From: Promethearchaeota archaeon
GTDB taxonomy: Archaea > Asgardarchaeota > Lokiarchaeia > Sigynarchaeales > SOKP01
Direction of reading: 5' to 3'
NCBI GenBank assembly: GCA_016839655.1
Contig: JAEOTW010000067.1
Location: 1-26,749, forward strand
Length of the DNA: 26,749 nt
The notes under the pieces are model-generated. The model worked only from the letters and a program-made list of their open reading frames with translations, was not told where the DNA came from and ran no database searches. Below are positions 5,151 to 20,162 of the stretch, one piece after another. The first letter of the stretch is position 1. Each line of letters begins with the position of its first letter. The position numbers were made by a program, and so were the translations under genes.

Positions 5151-6089
5151 TCAATTAATTTGATATATTTTTCGTGTTAAATTCTTGTTTACATAAAAAC
5201 CAAATTTCTTATAAAGTCCTAAAGCTTTTTCATTTTTAGTATCTACTCCTAACTTAATATATTTACATCCTTTTTTGCGAAGACTCTCAATCCCAGATGC
5301 GAGTACTGCACTTCCAATTTTACGATGTTGATAGCTTGGAAGAACTCCAAGATTTCCGATTCCGCCACTTTGATCTTGTTCAGGATTTAGAAAAGTATCA
5401 CACATCCCTATTATTTTTTCGTCGTCATAAGCAAGGCAATGTTCAACAATATGGTTCTTTTTGAAGCTCTCTGTCATTTTTTTCCATTTAGTTTTGGTTA
5501 CTGGTTTATATTTGAATGAGTCTGCAAATGCTTTATTTAATACATTAACAGCACCAGTATAATCGTCAAATTCCTTTAGAATTTGAATTTTAATTCCTTT
5601 TGGGGTATTAGGTGGTGAAAATAAATCAAAATTGTCTAAACGCATAGACCATGTGTAATTAACTGGATTATGTCCTAAGTCTTTTAATTTATTGTCAAAG
5701 GGTGCGTGTAATTCTCCATCTGTTTGAAATAAAATTTCTGGAATATTTAGTTTTTTTTTGAGTTTCAATGTGGCATCAATTAATACTTCAGGCAGGTTTG
5801 AATCAAAACACTCTGGTTTTATCGCAGCCACTGTAAGATAAGAATCTTTAAAGAGAGGAGTGATGGCTAATCCAGTAAAACCAACAATTTCTCCTTGTTC
5901 GTTCTCAAAAATTAAAAAATTTCTTGATAAAACAACATCTTTACCTAATATTGTACGGAAAATCTCTTCATTCAATTGAAATGTTGATTCGGGATTTATG
6001 TACTTTACCATTTGATTATATAATTCTACAATCGTAGCTAATCTAAGAGATTCATCATATGGTCTAATCTTATACTTATTCACCTTCAT
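5151..6089 (-). CDS. Double-domain GNAT acetyltransferase, copy 1
   Basis: A 312-residue protein with two GNAT-like halves, an arrangement also seen in MshD-type enzymes. The C-terminal half (about 165-312) has a clear acetyl-CoA site: LGVLPSYQHRKIGSAVL, with the R-x-x-G-x-A turn, then the LYKKFGF motif that ends most GNAT folds. The N-terminal half keeps the strand pattern (EIVGFTGLAITP) but has no recognisable acetyl-CoA turn, so it is probably a degenerate GNAT or substrate-recognition domain. The substrate is unknown. It is a close paralogue of the next gene upstream on the same strand, in tandem, with related upstream sequence too. No signal peptide or membrane segment is visible. Confidence 0.82.
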   Translation of the reverse strand: MKVNKYKIRPYDESLRLATIVELYNQMVKYINPESTFQLNEEIFRTILGKDVVLSRNFLIFENEQGEIVGFTGLAITPLFKDSYLTVAAIKPECFDSNLPEVLIDATLKLKKKLNIPEILFQTDGELHAPFDNKLKDLGHNPVNYTWSMRLDNFDLFSPPNTPKGIKIQILKEFDDYTGAVNVLNKAFADSFKYKPVTKTKWKKMTESFKKNHIVEHCLAYDDEKIIGMCDTFLNPEQDQSGGIGNLGVLPSYQHRKIGSAVLASGIESLRKKGCKYIKLGVDTKNEKALGLYKKFGFYVNKNLTRKIYQIN

Positions 6090-6194
6090 AATCTATATGA
6101 ATGATAATAATACATATAATCATTTCTCATTAAATATTAGATTCAGAATGGGTTTGTAGAAAAAAGATAATGAAAAAAGATTTTAATTAGGAAC

Positions 6195-7133
6195 TCAAAT
6201 AATTTGATATGTTCTTTGTGTCAAATTCTTTTTTATATAAAATCCAAATTTCTTGTAAAGTCCTAAAGCTTTTTCATTTTTGGTATCAACACCCAACTTA
6301 ATAGTTTTACATCCTTTTTTACGAAGCGTTTCAATACAAGTTGCGAGTAGAGCACTCCCTATTTTTCGGTGTTGATGACTCGGAAGAACACCAAAATTTG
6401 CAATTAATCCACTTTGATCTTGTTCAGGATTTAGATAAATATCACATATTCCAATATATTTATCATCTTCATATGCAACGCAATGTTCAACAATATGATT
6501 TTTTTTGGTAGTGTTAGTCATTTTCTTCCATCTAACCTTAGTAATCGGTTTATACATAAATGAATCTGCGAAAGCTTTATTGATTATATTAACAGTACCA
6601 ATAAAATCGTCCATCTCTTTTAAGATATTAATAGTAATACCTTCTGGAATCCCTGGGTGTGAAAATAGATCGAAATCATCTAAGTGCATTGACCAAGTGT
6701 AATTGACTGGACTAAAACCTAGACTTTCTAATTTCTCATCAAAAGGTGCTGAGAGATCTCCCATTGTTTGAAATAAAAATGTTGATACATTTAACTTCTT
6801 TTTAAGGTCCATTGTCGCATCAATCAATTCTCCAGGAAGTTCTGAATCAATATATTCAGGTAATACTGCATAAACAGCGACATGAGAATCTTTAACCCTT
6901 GGAGTAAGCGATAAACCAGTAAAAGCAATAAATTTACCTTGGTTATTTTCAAAAATTAAGTAATCTCTTGAAAATACAGTTTCTTGACCTAAGTACACCC
7001 GAGCAAGTTCTTCAGTTATATGTAATGTTGTTTCAGGATTTAAGTATTTAGCCATTTGATTATATAAATCTACAAGTAAAGATAATCCAATGGATTCATC
7101 ATAAGGTTTAACTGTAAACAAATTTGTCTTCAT
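6195..7133 (-). CDS. Double-domain GNAT acetyltransferase, copy 2
   Basis: Same length (312 aa) and same domain layout as the gene at 5151-6089, with long identical stretches such as KKNHIVEHC, NPEQDQSG, QHRKIGSA and LGVDTKNEKALGLYKKFGF. The acetyl-CoA turn is intact (R-K-I-G-S-A). The N-terminal half differs more between the copies than the C-terminal half, which would fit divergence in substrate choice with retained chemistry. The 5' flanks of the two genes are also alike (both have CTTCATAA followed by an AT-rich block ending near ATTCAG on the plus strand), so the duplication included the promoter. The acceptor molecule cannot be inferred. Confidence 0.82.
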   Translation of the reverse strand: MKTNLFTVKPYDESIGLSLLVDLYNQMAKYLNPETTLHITEELARVYLGQETVFSRDYLIFENNQGKFIAFTGLSLTPRVKDSHVAVYAVLPEYIDSELPGELIDATMDLKKKLNVSTFLFQTMGDLSAPFDEKLESLGFSPVNYTWSMHLDDFDLFSHPGIPEGITINILKEMDDFIGTVNIINKAFADSFMYKPITKVRWKKMTNTTKKNHIVEHCVAYEDDKYIGICDIYLNPEQDQSGLIANFGVLPSHQHRKIGSALLATCIETLRKKGCKTIKLGVDTKNEKALGLYKKFGFYIKKNLTQRTYQII

Positions 7134-7905: not shown

Positions 7906-8769
7906 TTATACCATAACAAATAATCTACCATTTGAACTATTGGAAATTTTTCCAGTTTTTTTATCTATCTTGGAATGATTCTTCTCAACTGAATGATCTC
8001 CGCTATACTCTACAAACTTACCTTTAATAATTTCACCGTTCATTAATTCAATTTCTTTCACTTCACCAAGTTTCTTATAAGAGGGAAGAATTCTCGAAAT
8101 TTTACCCTTTACAACGATTGTTCCTCGTATTTGGTCTGCTCCTATGCATCTATCACAATCACCCTCAACAATAATAGTACCACCGTGACCATGGATTCCT
8201 AAGAATGATCCAGCACCACCACAAATCAAAGTTGGAAATCTTTTTGCTGGTTTCGAACCATTTACCCAAGTTAGTGCTTCATTACCTATCTTACCTTTAA
8301 CTTTTATTACTCCGTTTTGCATTCCTTTCCAAAATCCTCTATAAGCAGCACCAACATAGTTTCCCGCATTACCAGTAATTTCTAATTCACCTCCCTTTAA
8401 CATAGCACCAGCCCAGTCATCAACATTCCCATTAACTAATATTTTTCCTCCAGTCATTGTGTTTCCCACATGCATTCCAACATTTCCATTTATTACAATT
8501 TCTCCATCTGTCATTTTTTCACCGATTCTTTTAATATCTGAGAGATCTCCATCAATTGTTATTTTTGTCTCATTTACTTCTCCTCCATTCCCAGAAACAT
8601 CAAAAAAGTCTCCAATTGTTTTTTCTTCATTACCATGATACACTATAAGTTTTTTTATCTCAGCAGCTGATTTTCCAGCAAATTTATCTGGTGTTATAGT
8701 TTCAGCTTCTAATGGAAATTCAGGATTTTTCTTTAATTTTAATTTAACTTCTGCTATGAGTCTATTCAC
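7906..8769 (-). CDS. fwdC: Formylmethanofuran dehydrogenase subunit C
   Basis: FwdC is a right-handed beta-helix subunit of the complex that reduces CO2 and binds it to methanofuran, related to the C-terminal domain of glutamate synthase. The repeats are easy to see from residue about 75 to 225: successive turns such as GEIVINGNVGMHVGN, GKILVNGNVDDWAGA, GELEITGNAGNYVGA and GTIIVEGDCDRCIGA. The gene starts with GTG at 8769 and overlaps the end of fwdB by 8 nt (GGTGAATAG holds both the GTG and the fwdB stop), a sign of translational coupling. It is the last fwd gene of the operon. Length (287 aa) is within the family range. Confidence 0.93.
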   Translation of the reverse strand: MNRLIAEVKLKLKKNPEFPLEAETITPDKFAGKSAAEIKKLIVYHGNEEKTIGDFFDVSGNGGEVNETKITIDGDLSDIKRIGEKMTDGEIVINGNVGMHVGNTMTGGKILVNGNVDDWAGAMLKGGELEITGNAGNYVGAAYRGFWKGMQNGVIKVKGKIGNEALTWVNGSKPAKRFPTLICGGAGSFLGIHGHGGTIIVEGDCDRCIGADQIRGTIVVKGKISRILPSYKKLGEVKEIELMNGEIIKGKFVEYSGDHSVEKNHSKIDKKTGKISNSSNGRLFVMV

Positions 8770-10116
8770 CTTTTTTTATCTTTATTGCATCTAGTAATTT
8801 CTCTAAGATTACTTTATCTGTAAGACATTCTCCTGGAGCTTCTTTGACTTTTCGTAATCTTAAAGGTACACTATCCATACGATAAGCTGTTCCTTCACAC
8901 TCAATTCCAGCAATAGCAGGAGGTAATATAACATCAGCATTCACAGAGGTTGGAGTGTGATGTGGTTCTATAGCAATTAAAGGATGTTTAAACATATTCC
9001 TTACTGAAGCTGCTGGAAAATTGCTAGCTGGATCTGAAGCAACAATTAGCGAGGCATCAATCTCATCTCTTAAAAGAACATCCACTGCGGAAAATTCGCC
9101 TGGATTATAACGGGGATATCCTTTCGCAAAATCAATAGAATAAGAATAACCCGTCTGCCAAGAAAATACCTGATTTGCCCCTGCAACATTGTAATGACCT
9201 CTCATCGGTGTTAATAAGAACTTGGTATGATCATTAAGTTCGCGTACAAGACAAATTGCAGCATCTATATTTCTATGATGAGAAAGGGTCTGAGTTAGCC
9301 CCATTCCAAAAAATAATACACCAAATTTACATGATTTCATGGCATTAACTAATTCTATTATTTTATTTTTTGGAACACCCGAAATTTCATCACCATCCAA
9401 TTCAACACCCCTTAAAGTAGCTCTAATTGCATTTATTAATTCATAATCTTCATTAGGGTTTATTTGAACATGCATATCGGCTAATTGAGCAGTATTTGTA
9501 TTTCTAGGATCAACAACAATTAAAGTTCTATCCTGCGTTCCATCCTTTCTAAAATATCCACGAACAAAATCACTATATCTTCCTAAATGCCTTGGATGCG
9601 CATGAACGGGATTACTACCCCAAAATATTACTAAATCTGCCCTATTTTTATATTCACCTAAAGTTGATGTTGGGGCTCCTACATCTTGGATTGCCAATAA
9701 TGAGGGACCATGACACACAGAAGCAGTATTATCTAGAATTCCTCCTAATATTTCTGCTATTTCTACCCCTTTACCTTGGGCTTCACATTCAGTACTAGAA
9801 AAACCATAAAGTAATGGTCTTTTAGCTTTCAATAAAATATCAGATGCTATATCAATTGCCTCATCCCAAGATACTTCTTTATAGGCGCCATTGTCTTTAA
9901 TTAAAGGTTTATCGTATCGATGTTCACTTGGATTAGAAGAAAAATATTTCTTGGTACCAATTTGACAACCATTGCGAACTTCAATAACTTTTCGTCCTTC
10001 AATATCTACGTCAACTTCGAGGTCGTCACATAAAGTTACAGTATAATAGCGAATTGCTATTTAATTCCGCAGAATGGACAGACCACATCAGTGATGGTTT
10101 TAATTTTTTCTACCAT
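8762..10116 (-). CDS. fwdB: Formylmethanofuran dehydrogenase subunit B, frame interrupted by a 29-nt insert
   Basis: FwdB is the catalytic Mo/W-bis-pyranopterin subunit, of the formate dehydrogenase fold, that reduces CO2 to formate. The start at 10116 follows fwdD by 2 nt and has the site AGAGGT at 10123-10128. It encodes MVEKIKTITDVVCPFCG, then GGA is followed by ATT AAA TAG, an in-frame stop. Another frame, open from 10060, continues as TLCDDLEVDVDIEGRK and runs unbroken to 8762. Taking out 29 nt (10037-10065) rejoins the two to give CPFCGTLCDD and 441 aa, the normal family length. In the joined protein C13, C16, C20 and C41 would bind the [4Fe-4S] cluster, and C125 in SVCHGPS is the likely metal ligand (Cys form, not Sec). 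Without the join, no ATG, GTG or TTG lies in the downstream frame before the TTG at 9832, and a protein starting there would lack the cluster domain. Confidence 0.88.
10037..10065 (-). other. 29-nt hairpin insert in the iron-sulfur loop of fwdB
   Basis: On the mRNA strand the segment lies between GGA (Gly17) and ACT TTA TGT (Thr-Leu-Cys20). It contains AATAGC-AATTC-GCTATT, a perfect 6-bp stem with a 5-nt loop. The boundary is ambiguous by one base, because both junctions share an A. It carries an in-frame TAG, has a length that is not a multiple of three and separates two parts of a strongly conserved motif, so it is foreign to the protein. The flanking GGAATT can also pair with the loop AATTC, giving an alternative, mutually exclusive fold. 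I could not draw a convincing bulge-helix-bulge at the junctions. Whether it is removed from RNA, bypassed or simply disrupts the gene cannot be told from the sequence. Confidence 0.75.
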
Positions 10117-16320: not shown

Positions 16321-17160
16321 ATGGAAGAATTCAAAACCAATGCTCCAATAACTTGGTGTCCGGGTTGTGGTAATTTCGGTATCTTCACTGCTATAAGAAA
16401 TGCGATACCCATATTAGAGCAAAATGGTATAAAAAAAGAAAACATAGTTATGACCGCAGGAATTGGATGTCATGCAAAAATTTTTGATTATCTCAAGTTG
16501 AGTGGAATTTATGGCTTACATGGGCGAAACACTTCAAACTCAGAAGGTATTAAAATTGCAAATCCAGATTTAAAAATCCTAAACTTTTCTGGAGATGCTA
16601 ATGGATTAGCGGAAGGTTTAGCACATACAATGTTCGCAGCAAAAAGAAACCAAGATATAACATTTATTTTACACAATAATAGCGTATATGCTCTTACAAC
16701 AGGTCAATTTTCTCCTTTAGCCGAAAAAGGATGGAAAGGACCGTCTACACCCAGAGGTAGCTATGAAGAACCATTTAATCCAATGTCTTTAATGATTGAA
16801 GCGGGTGCCACTTTCGTAGCAAGGAGTTTTGCGGGAGATATAAAACATCTTACAGATCTTATGGTACAAGGAGTAGAACATGAAGGTTTCGCTTTCATAG
16901 AAGTCTTACAACCTGCCGTTCCATACCATAAATGGGCTGAATATAGAGAAAGAGTTGATTATCTTGAAAAAGAACCGGAAACTTACTTCGAAGCCATAAA
17001 GGCTGCTAAAGAGAATCATAAGTTTACAATAGGAGTATTTTATAGAACTACAAGACCAGTTTATCATAAAGAATTATATGGAGAGTATAATCCTGTTACA
17101 AAAAAAATACCGAGAGTGGCAAGATTAGAAAAAATTCAAAAATTTCTTAGATCTTTATAA
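16321..17160 (+). CDS. korB: 2-oxoacid:ferredoxin oxidoreductase, beta subunit
   Basis: The thiamine-diphosphate-binding beta subunit. The TPP motif is clear: GDANGLAEGL starting at residue 91, then NN at 119-120 after the usual gap. The N-terminal WCPGCG gives C13 and C16, and C50 in GIGC follows. The two-subunit enzymes normally bind a [4Fe-4S] cluster through four cysteines, with the fourth in a QPC motif; here that site reads LQPAVPYH (Ala199) and no other cysteine is present later in the chain. The ribosome binding site GGAGGTG at 16306-16312 lies inside the end of korA, so the two are coupled. Two decayed copies of this gene's 3' part lie downstream. Confidence 0.92.
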   Translation: MEEFKTNAPITWCPGCGNFGIFTAIRNAIPILEQNGIKKENIVMTAGIGCHAKIFDYLKLSGIYGLHGRNTSNSEGIKIANPDLKILNFSGDANGLAEGLAHTMFAAKRNQDITFILHNNSVYALTTGQFSPLAEKGWKGPSTPRGSYEEPFNPMSLMIEAGATFVARSFAGDIKHLTDLMVQGVEHEGFAFIEVLQPAVPYHKWAEYRERVDYLEKEPETYFEAIKAAKENHKFTIGVFYRTTRPVYHKELYGEYNPVTKKIPRVARLEKIQKFLRSL

Positions 17161-18791: not shown

Positions 18792-19193
18792 ATGCATAAA
18801 GATGAAGTAGAATTATTTCTAAAGAGATCAAATAATTTTTTAGAAGCAGCACAAGAAAGGTTTGAAAAGCAAGATTGGGATTTAACTTGTTTCTTTTCTG
18901 AACAAGCTATACAACTATATTTAAAAGCATCTCTATTAGAATTAGGAGGAGAATTTCCTAGATCACACTCTATAAGAACTCTATTTGCAAATCTCTCTCA
19001 ATTTTCGGAAAAGAAAATAGAATACGATAGAAAATCTTTAAGATTCATAGAAGATTCGTATTTTAATGCTAGATATTTAGATTATAAATATGATAAGGAA
19101 GATGCTTCAGATGCATTAAATATTGCAGATAAGTTGAAAAAAATCATTGACCAAGTTAGAAAAGATTTTAGAAATAGGGAAGAACAGAAGTAA
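18792..19193 (+). CDS. HEPN domain protein (probable toxin of a HEPN/MNT pair)
   Basis: A 133-residue all-helical protein of the HEPN family (PF05168 type). Seen in the sequence: DLTCFFSEQAIQLYLKASLL at about 30-49, matching the family's W/A-CFLAQQAxEKALKALL helix, then GGEFPRSHSI (52-61) and YFNARYLD (90-97). HEPN proteins paired with MNT nucleotidyltransferases are toxins, often ribonucleases, kept inactive by their partner. The canonical RX4-6H ribonuclease motif, or the RX4HXY form of HepT, is not obvious here, so catalysis is uncertain. The gene overlaps the MNT gene by 47 nt if that one starts at its TTG. Confidence 0.85.
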   Translation: MHKDEVELFLKRSNNFLEAAQERFEKQDWDLTCFFSEQAIQLYLKASLLELGGEFPRSHSIRTLFANLSQFSEKKIEYDRKSLRFIEDSYFNARYLDYKYDKEDASDALNIADKLKKIIDQVRKDFRNREEQK

Positions 19194-19500
19194 AATACTA
19201 TTAAATTATAAAAAATATTTAGAAAGAATAGTTCCTATTATAGAAGCTAATCTCAAGGATGCCAATATTTACTTATTTGGTAGTGTTTTAGAAAATAATA
19301 TAGTTGCGTCAAGTGATATTGATATAATAATTGAATGTGATGTACCTAAAAACCATATGAGAAGAGCTGAAATTGTAGCTAACATAGAGGAGCAAACAGA
19401 CTTACCATTATATCATCCTTTTCAATTCCATATTTTAACAGAAAAAGAGTTAATTAAATGGAAAAGTATCTATAAAATAAAACCAAAAAAAATCAACTAA
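19147..19500 (+). CDS. MNT-type minimal nucleotidyltransferase (antitoxin partner)
   Basis: A 117-residue minimal nucleotidyltransferase. The catalytic motif GSX10DXD is exact: G45-S46, then D57 and D59 within YLFGSVLENN...SSDIDIII. In characterised MntA/HepT pairs the antitoxin blocks its HEPN toxin by adding AMP to a tyrosine. No ATG, GTG or other good start lies before the motif except the TTG at 19147, which I use; this makes a long overlap with the HEPN gene and indicates coupled expression. A later initiation would remove the first helix. The pair sits between two decayed korB fragments, a typical accessory setting. Confidence 0.82.
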   Translation: MTKLEKILEIGKNRSKILLNYKKYLERIVPIIEANLKDANIYLFGSVLENNIVASSDIDIIIECDVPKNHMRRAEIVANIEEQTDLPLYHPFQFHILTEKELIKWKSIYKIKPKKIN

Positions 19501-19658: not shown

Positions 19659-20162
19659 ATAACATTTATCTTACATAATAATAGTGTGTATGCCCTTACA
19701 ACGGGCTAATTTTCACCATTAGCAGAAAAAGGGTGGAAAGGCCCCTCTACTCCAAGAGGAAGCTATGAAGGACCATTTTATCCAATTTCTTTAATGATTG
19801 AGGCTGGTGCTACTTTTGTCGCGAGAGTTTTTGCTGGAGATATAAAACATCTTACAGATCTAATTATACAAGGAGTAGAGCATGAAGGATTTGCTTTTAT
19901 AGAAGTTTTGCAACCTGCCATTCCCAACCATAAATGGGAAGAATATAGAGAATACATTGAATATCTTGAGAAAGAATCTGAAAATTATTTGGAGGCTATA
20001 AAAGTTAATAAGGAAAAACATAAATTTACTATTGGAGTTTTTTTTAGAACATCAAAACCAGTTTATCATAGGAAATTATACGGAGAACATAACCCATTGA
20101 CGAAAAAACTTTCAAGGAAGATACGTTTAGAAAAACTTCACAAAATTCTTGAATTATTATAA
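19659..20162 (+). pseudogene. Truncated korB copy with internal stop (copy 3)
   Basis: From 19659 the translation follows intact korB from its residue 113 onward (ITFILHNNSVYALTTG), then meets TAA at 19707-19709 where korB has CAA (Gln129). After the stop the frame is clean to 20162 and keeps the same end (RLEKLHKILELL). The first 112 residues, with the cysteine motif and most of the TPP site, are missing. Most base differences from korB are at third codon positions, so the copy evolved under protein-level constraint before it decayed. A 122-residue piece could start at the ATG at 19794, but would lack the catalytic region. It also has Ala at the QPC position (LQPAIPNH). Confidence 0.85.

Follow-up and report, generated by a model that had tools for sequence, protein, structure and literature searches.

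The window (the whole stretch of DNA that we analysed, 26,749 nt of contig JAEOTW010000067.1) carries fwdB on its minus strand. The ATG at 10116-10114 lies 2 nt past the preceding ORF (10538-10119), as the original prediction held. Reading from this ATG gives MVEKIKTITDVVCPFCGIK and then a stop codon, and the motif stretch reads CPFCG-I-K-TAG, so the early in-frame TAG that had been described after CPFCG is there. If a 29-nt insert is deleted, then a single ORF of 441 amino acids appears, with CPFCGTLCDD where the motif was broken. Its product matches NCBIfam TIGR03129 (formylmethanofuran dehydrogenase subunit B) with 604 bits (the cut-off is 328), and it is 90% identical to FwdB from a Lokiarchaeota MAG (L001), which marks the window as Lokiarchaeal. 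The claim that an insert interrupts an otherwise normal fwdB therefore stands.

The insert had also been said to be exactly 29 nt long and to occupy 10037-10065. Removing 29 nt does restore the frame and the 441-aa length, but many other deletion lengths also reopen the frame, so the exact length is fixed by the orthologues. The insert has three equivalent positions. 10037-10065 is one of them, but bulge-helix-bulge (BHB) geometry favours 10036-10064, which is where we place a predicted BHB intron. Exon 1 would then run from the ATG to GCGGAA (10065-10116, 52 nt) and exon 2 through the stop codon (8762-10035), all on the minus strand. An Rfam scan of the window gave no match, and so no ribozyme core of a group I or group II intron, and the insert is just 29 nt long. 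A tRNA scan of the window found no tRNAs.

Structure of the fwdB insert and its exons

Four nucleotides near the end of exon 1 (GCGG, 10067-10070) and four near the 3' end of the predicted intron (CUGU, 10038-10041) form a central helix with four of four pairs. On either side of this helix is a 3-nt bulge: AA^U at 10064-10066, with a predicted cut at 10065/10064, and AA^C at 10035-10037, with a predicted cut at 10036/10035. The intron itself holds a hairpin (AAUAGC-AAUUC-GCUAUU, 10045-10061) whose pentaloop has the form NNNUC, and beyond the borders the exons fold onto each other in an outer helix (GGUC and GUCCAU at 10074-10084 on the 5' side; AUG, GAC and GACC at 10021-10031 on the 3' side). 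The 6-bp stem AATAGC/GCTATT with loop AATTC, which had been taken as the centre of the insert, is real, and the intron core is more stable than shuffled sequences (z -5.9; 5 of 1000 shuffles were equally stable). However, this stem belongs to a larger exon-intron-exon structure that had not been described. We rejected a simple 6-bp palindrome as the complete account, since the larger BHB accounts for the ends of the insert. For the 66-nt region as a whole, z was -3.4, and 1 of 200 shuffles folds equally well. The minimum-free-energy (MFE) fold has an internal loop between the outer and central helices, and two border letters are paired instead of bulged, so the clean BHB is an interpretation of the fold and not the literal MFE structure; across the inserts described below, too, the MFE folds do not all give a clean BHB. 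Selenocysteine or stop read-through was rejected because the frame shifts as well.

We compared how well introns fit their own exons by folding 18 introns either with their own 30-nt flanks or with the flanks of intronless orthologues. The native exons gave a more stable structure than the orthologue mean for 17 of the 18; the exception (L149) was less stable. For the window, none of 41 intronless orthologues was as stable as the native exons. Across all 18 introns, 54 of 479 orthologue flanks were as stable, but the orthologues are related, so these trials are not independent. Synonymous differences from the nearest intronless relative were also more frequent near introns (148/287) than far from them (2029/6271), with control comparisons slightly raised as well (105/255 near and 2068/5899 far). 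The excess was sharpest in L029 (8/15 near, 33/395 far) and strong as well in L037, L008 and L209, whereas neither L208 nor L212 showed it. It could be due to co-conversion or to selection for exon pairing. It fits selection for pairing, and if so, the inserts would be working RNA structures.

Related inserts in Lokiarchaeal genes

Of the 47 loci in which we read the fwdB site, 43 are labelled Lokiarchaeota or Lokiarchaeia. The original prediction had proposed comparing the locus in relatives, and inserts do recur there: L008 and L037 have 29-nt inserts at the same site, L010 and L029 have 29-nt inserts 7 nt upstream of it, and L047 (counted as genome G029 on coordinates) has a 31-nt insert near codon 135. 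The same-site inserts come from independent assemblies and differ in sequence. All six fwdB inserts, including the window's, fit the BHB; the central helix has 4/4 pairs except in L008 and L047, which have 3/4. With the predicted cut after the second bulge nucleotide, FwdB is restored in all six. Among the matches listed for FwdB (120 of 4718 database relatives, protein entries only), eight (P0047, P0048, P0050, P0051, P0055, P0056, P0059 and P0078) have N-termini that resemble a translated insert (e.g. ..RFIAVCGTLCDD), and their annotated starts appear to lie inside an intron. Another three entries (P0125, P0126 and P0127) are 427 aa long and begin with exactly MCGTLCDD, which suggests a further intron variant whose end provides the ATG.

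Altogether we count 42 predicted introns, 28-37 nt long, which occupy 15 sites within six genes (fwdB, cdhC, cdhD, cooS, rpl11 and an unnamed gene). They are carried by the window and by 25 of 83 genomes of the Lokiarchaeal class, which is not an estimate of frequency because the genomes were partly picked for short frames. In cdhC there are three sites in five genomes (L147, L148, L149, L150 with two, and L151), and in cdhD there are three sites across four genomes. In cooS, identified from NCBIfam as carbon-monoxide dehydrogenase, G035 and G042 share one site. The unnamed gene, which has no Pfam or NCBIfam match, has one insert site in G006 and G040, while its orthologues in G049, G047, G003 and G060 are shorter and have no stops. 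A second copy of this gene, with an identical 30-nt intron, lies next to a run of Ns in G006 (L261:10900-11400, about 691031). Several inserts are 30, 33 or 36 nt long, which is divisible by three, and yet contain stop codons. The spliced proteins agree with intronless orthologues, with the choice among equivalent placements made with the BHB motif in mind.

The rpl11 inserts were first detected in a de novo scan of G006. In a survey with PF00298, the L11 frames of some Lokiarchaeal genomes had 140-151 aa, as compared to at least 158 in most others. We read rpl11 in 16 short-frame genomes, in G006, and in two long-frame controls (G060, at a contig start, was left out). All 17 short-frame genomes carry one to three inserts (23 inserts at four sites), and neither long-frame control has one. 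L306 requires three removals; its first insert is truncated by the end of the piece and is outside the tally, and its second was placed by hand. The spliced pieces align to L11 without gaps, in L301 and L306 from mid-domain only, where the piece ends. At the start of L301 (G032, contig end), the residues ahead of ASGGPPIG do not match L11; they look like the end of another site-A rpl11 intron cut by the contig end. In a sample of the phylum (180 of 195 genomes matched), and among the matches listed, L11 frames of 140-146 aa were confined to the Lokiarchaeal class, and G105 (contig end) and G197 had frames of about 100 aa.

A split-gene scan of 1.95 Mb in 139 loci, among them 20 ribosomal L4 regions, found at least three supporting loci for fwdB and cdhC only; such scans overlook very short exons, and L010 fell below the cut-off in this one. 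Three further matches from it were set aside as wrong-strand or poorly aligned, as were weak matches from other scans (ORFs antisense to genes, or variable proteins). Among the matches listed in a PF03599 survey, stops were found only in four delta-type genes (cdhD) and in no full-length gamma-type gene; among those listed for PF03063, no cdhA-type gene had stops or splits. A survey of NiFe hydrogenases found no stops and two short frames, in G032 (near a contig end) and in G019. The G019 match (G019:C216:6572-6808) has an open frame of 243 aa, versus about 435-450 in most, and may reflect an intron, a contig end or a remnant. In G006, the de novo scan covered the first 1.2 Mb; its power was modest, and 147 candidates passed the filters. 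Among the 60 listed, two were convincing (the unnamed gene and rpl11), and the rest look like gene borders or wrong-strand matches.

The central helix recurs throughout the family. In the first 18 introns, whose placements were hand-picked with the BHB motif in mind, 67 of 72 positions are paired. If either arm is shifted by 1 to 4, at most 38 pairs remain, and no more than 52 form in any of 20,000 shuffled versions of the introns, which were permitted the same equivalent placements as the real ones. (In L150 s1 and L147, we chose between placements 1-2 nt apart whose proteins differ in a conservative residue, and the shuffles do not mimic this choice.) When each of the 10 sites is represented by a single intron, 38 of 40 positions are paired, and 0 of 20,000 shuffles score as high. 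Only the first 18 introns were used in this test because the script for rpl11 rewarded pairing; splice positions in rpl11 were partly set by the helix, so pairing there is not independent. Over all 42 introns, each has at least three of the four pairs: 33 have all four and nine have a single unpaired position. At rpl11 site C (8 sequences), 96.9% of positions are paired, as compared to at most 47.9% in slid registers, but the covariation signal is weak, with both partners altered in 2 pairs, a score matched by 69 of 500 shuffles. MAFFT alignments of the inserts lose the structural register.

An NNNUC pentaloop closed by at least three pairs is found in 31 of the 42 introns and at 11 of the 15 sites. 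In 1000 shuffles the mean was 2.7 and the maximum was 9, and the next best 3' dinucleotide also scores 9. The hairpin alone has an average z of -3.6 across 18 introns, although in four of them (L008, L010, L029 and L207) it does not outperform shuffled sequences at the 5% threshold. The BHB is what the tRNA-splicing endonuclease EndA is described as recognising, so we think that the shared loop points to common ancestry or to an additional factor.

Proposed splicing and its alternatives

Candidates for the splicing enzymes are present in related genomes. PF01974 (EndA) matched in all six genomes tested, twice in five of them and once in G003, and the RtcB ligase (PF01139) was found in 10 of 10. 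The EndA alpha protein of G006 aligns with the EndA chains 3p1z_B and 3ajv_B, including the column of the catalytic His; this residue is Ala in 3ajv_B, which we take to be the catalytic mutant of a crenarchaeal enzyme. For the beta paralogue of G002, the best alignment is with the EndA of 1a79, and the catalytic His is missing. Such an alpha and beta pair resembles the hetero-oligomeric enzymes that are tied to cbf5 pre-mRNA splicing in passages of PMC2738675. From these relatives, we infer that the window's own genome encodes EndA and RtcB as well.

We propose, with a probability of roughly 92%, that the insert in the window is a 29-nt BHB-type pre-mRNA intron that is excised by EndA and whose exons are joined by RtcB. 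In the transcript, GCGG near the end of exon 1 would pair with CUGU at the 3' end of the intron, leaving a 3-nt bulge at each exon-intron border, the intron hairpin, and the outer helix between the exons. The two-subunit tRNA-splicing endonuclease would cut each bulge behind its second nucleotide, and ligation of the exons by RtcB would give a normal FwdB mRNA. The intron would be one of a family of 28-37 nt, mostly with the NNNUC pentaloop, that sits in conserved stretches of Lokiarchaeal core genes. We infer cleavage and ligation of the fwdB transcript from this geometry, from its recurrence at homologous and other sites, and from the exon fit, which together strongly support one of the ideas in the original prediction, a very small excised RNA segment.

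Another of those ideas was programmed bypass, in which the ribosome would leave the message at GGA and resume translation past the hairpin. The insert of T4 gene 60 and the byp elements of yeast mitochondria are bypassed in this way, and they too are very short hairpins in coding genes; our inserts, which are short hairpins within conserved genes and many of which contain stop codons, would suit this mechanism. However, a matched take-off and landing site is missing: just 2 of 18 inserts share at least three letters at their borders and the other 16 do not, and in the window GGA faces GTA, so the lack of a matching landing codon had been correctly pointed out. Nor do the fixed-register 4-bp exon-intron helix and the outer exon helices have a known role in bypass. 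With stop codons in inserts whose length is a multiple of three, and with three inserts to be removed from rpl11 of L306, we consider bypass very improbable. We give about the same small weight to removal of the inserts from the RNA by some other nuclease that recognises the NNNUC hairpin. The NNNUC loop does lie outside the BHB motif as described in the literature that we consulted, but according to PMC2738675, EndA recognises a BHB in which each bulge is cut behind its second nucleotide, EndA is encoded in the relatives, and the window has no ribozyme match.

A recent insertion that kills the gene, or pseudogenisation, would explain the in-frame stops and the patchy presence among close relatives. 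But the conserved protein is regained in the inserts that we read, including rpl11 in 17 of 17 short-frame genomes, removal is frame-exact, and the exons fit the insert, so a plain null mutation is less probable still. Least probable of all is an error of sequencing or assembly: the window does rest on one contig, but same-site inserts with differing sequences are found in independent assemblies, and inserts are also present within a single-contig chromosome (G006). Finally, a transposition-like insertion, which had been offered as a further explanation, may apply to how the family arose, but it does not account for the way the gene functions.

Possible origin and spread, and known counterparts

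In a tree of FwdB (48 rows), site 1 (the window, L008 and L037) and site 2 (L010 and L029) need two changes each, and their clustering does not exceed that of shuffled labels. L029 and L037 are placed amid close intronless relatives, so gain or loss was recent there. At cdhD site 1, the introns of L207 (8180-8215) and L209 (1159-1194) are 89% identical and their 30-nt flanks are 93-100% identical, as compared to 74-78% at 60-360 nt from the intron. This hints at local transfer between lineages, but it is not proof because the motif itself is conserved; for the remaining same-site pairs, flank similarity is weaker or absent. We give even odds to a broader proposal, that these are a mobile and proliferating family of mini pre-mRNA introns that descend from one NNNUC-hairpin ancestor, spread among genes and genomes (sometimes with co-converted flanks), and are removed by EndA, so that core genes routinely contain introns. 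The family would then be an archaeal counterpart of eukaryotic introners. Introners are spliceosomal and longer, and one small family of them occupies many sites; the Lokiarchaeal inserts share the many sites but are shorter and of predicted BHB type.

Introns in the cbf5 pre-mRNA of Crenarchaeota were reportedly described by Watanabe in 2002. As set out in passages of PMC2738675 (Yokobori 2009), they have the BHB motif and a hetero-oligomeric endonuclease. They resemble the Lokiarchaeal inserts in being BHB introns of a protein-coding gene, with a cut after the second bulge nucleotide (predicted in our case), patchy gain and loss, and a hetero-oligomeric endonuclease. The cbf5 introns in these passages are from one gene of Crenarchaeota, whereas our family is from a different phylum and occupies 15 sites in fwdB and five other genes instead of cbf5, with up to three introns per gene, a common NNNUC loop, and a measured exon fit. 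According to a portion of PMC7714728, cbf5 was the sole earlier case in mRNA, and one case in a 5' UTR of Haloferax was added. This BHB element of HVO_1309 is also an EndA substrate in an mRNA (as predicted here for fwdB), but in that portion of PMC7714728 it is a single case in a 5' UTR, while the Lokiarchaeal inserts lie in coding sequence. The BHB introns of archaeal tRNAs and rRNAs share the motif and, if our reading is correct, the enzyme; the difference is that the Lokiarchaeal inserts are in mRNAs and interrupt the reading frame. In the literature on BHB motifs and introns in Asgard archaea, we found no report of such introns by title or abstract (preprints and most subscription papers were outside the scope of this search).

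If our proposal is correct, then protein-spliced introns break up coding genes in close prokaryotic relatives of eukaryotes. Genes that bear them, from fwdB to L11, are prone to mis-annotation, and phylogenomics and the inference of metabolism can both be led astray by this. It also becomes testable how the introns spread, why highly conserved codons are hit, and whether such splicing of pre-mRNA is older than the spliceosome in the lineage.

We also note three other features of the window. A 122-aa ORF (19794-20162) resembles by eye the C-terminal region of another ORF (16321-17160) and is probably a gene remnant. Two small overlapping ORFs at 18792-19500 look, by eye, like a toxin-antitoxin-type pair (HEPN/nucleotidyltransferase). 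Two adjoining and related 312-aa ORFs at 5151-7133 are acetyltransferase-like and appear, by eye, to be a tandem duplication.
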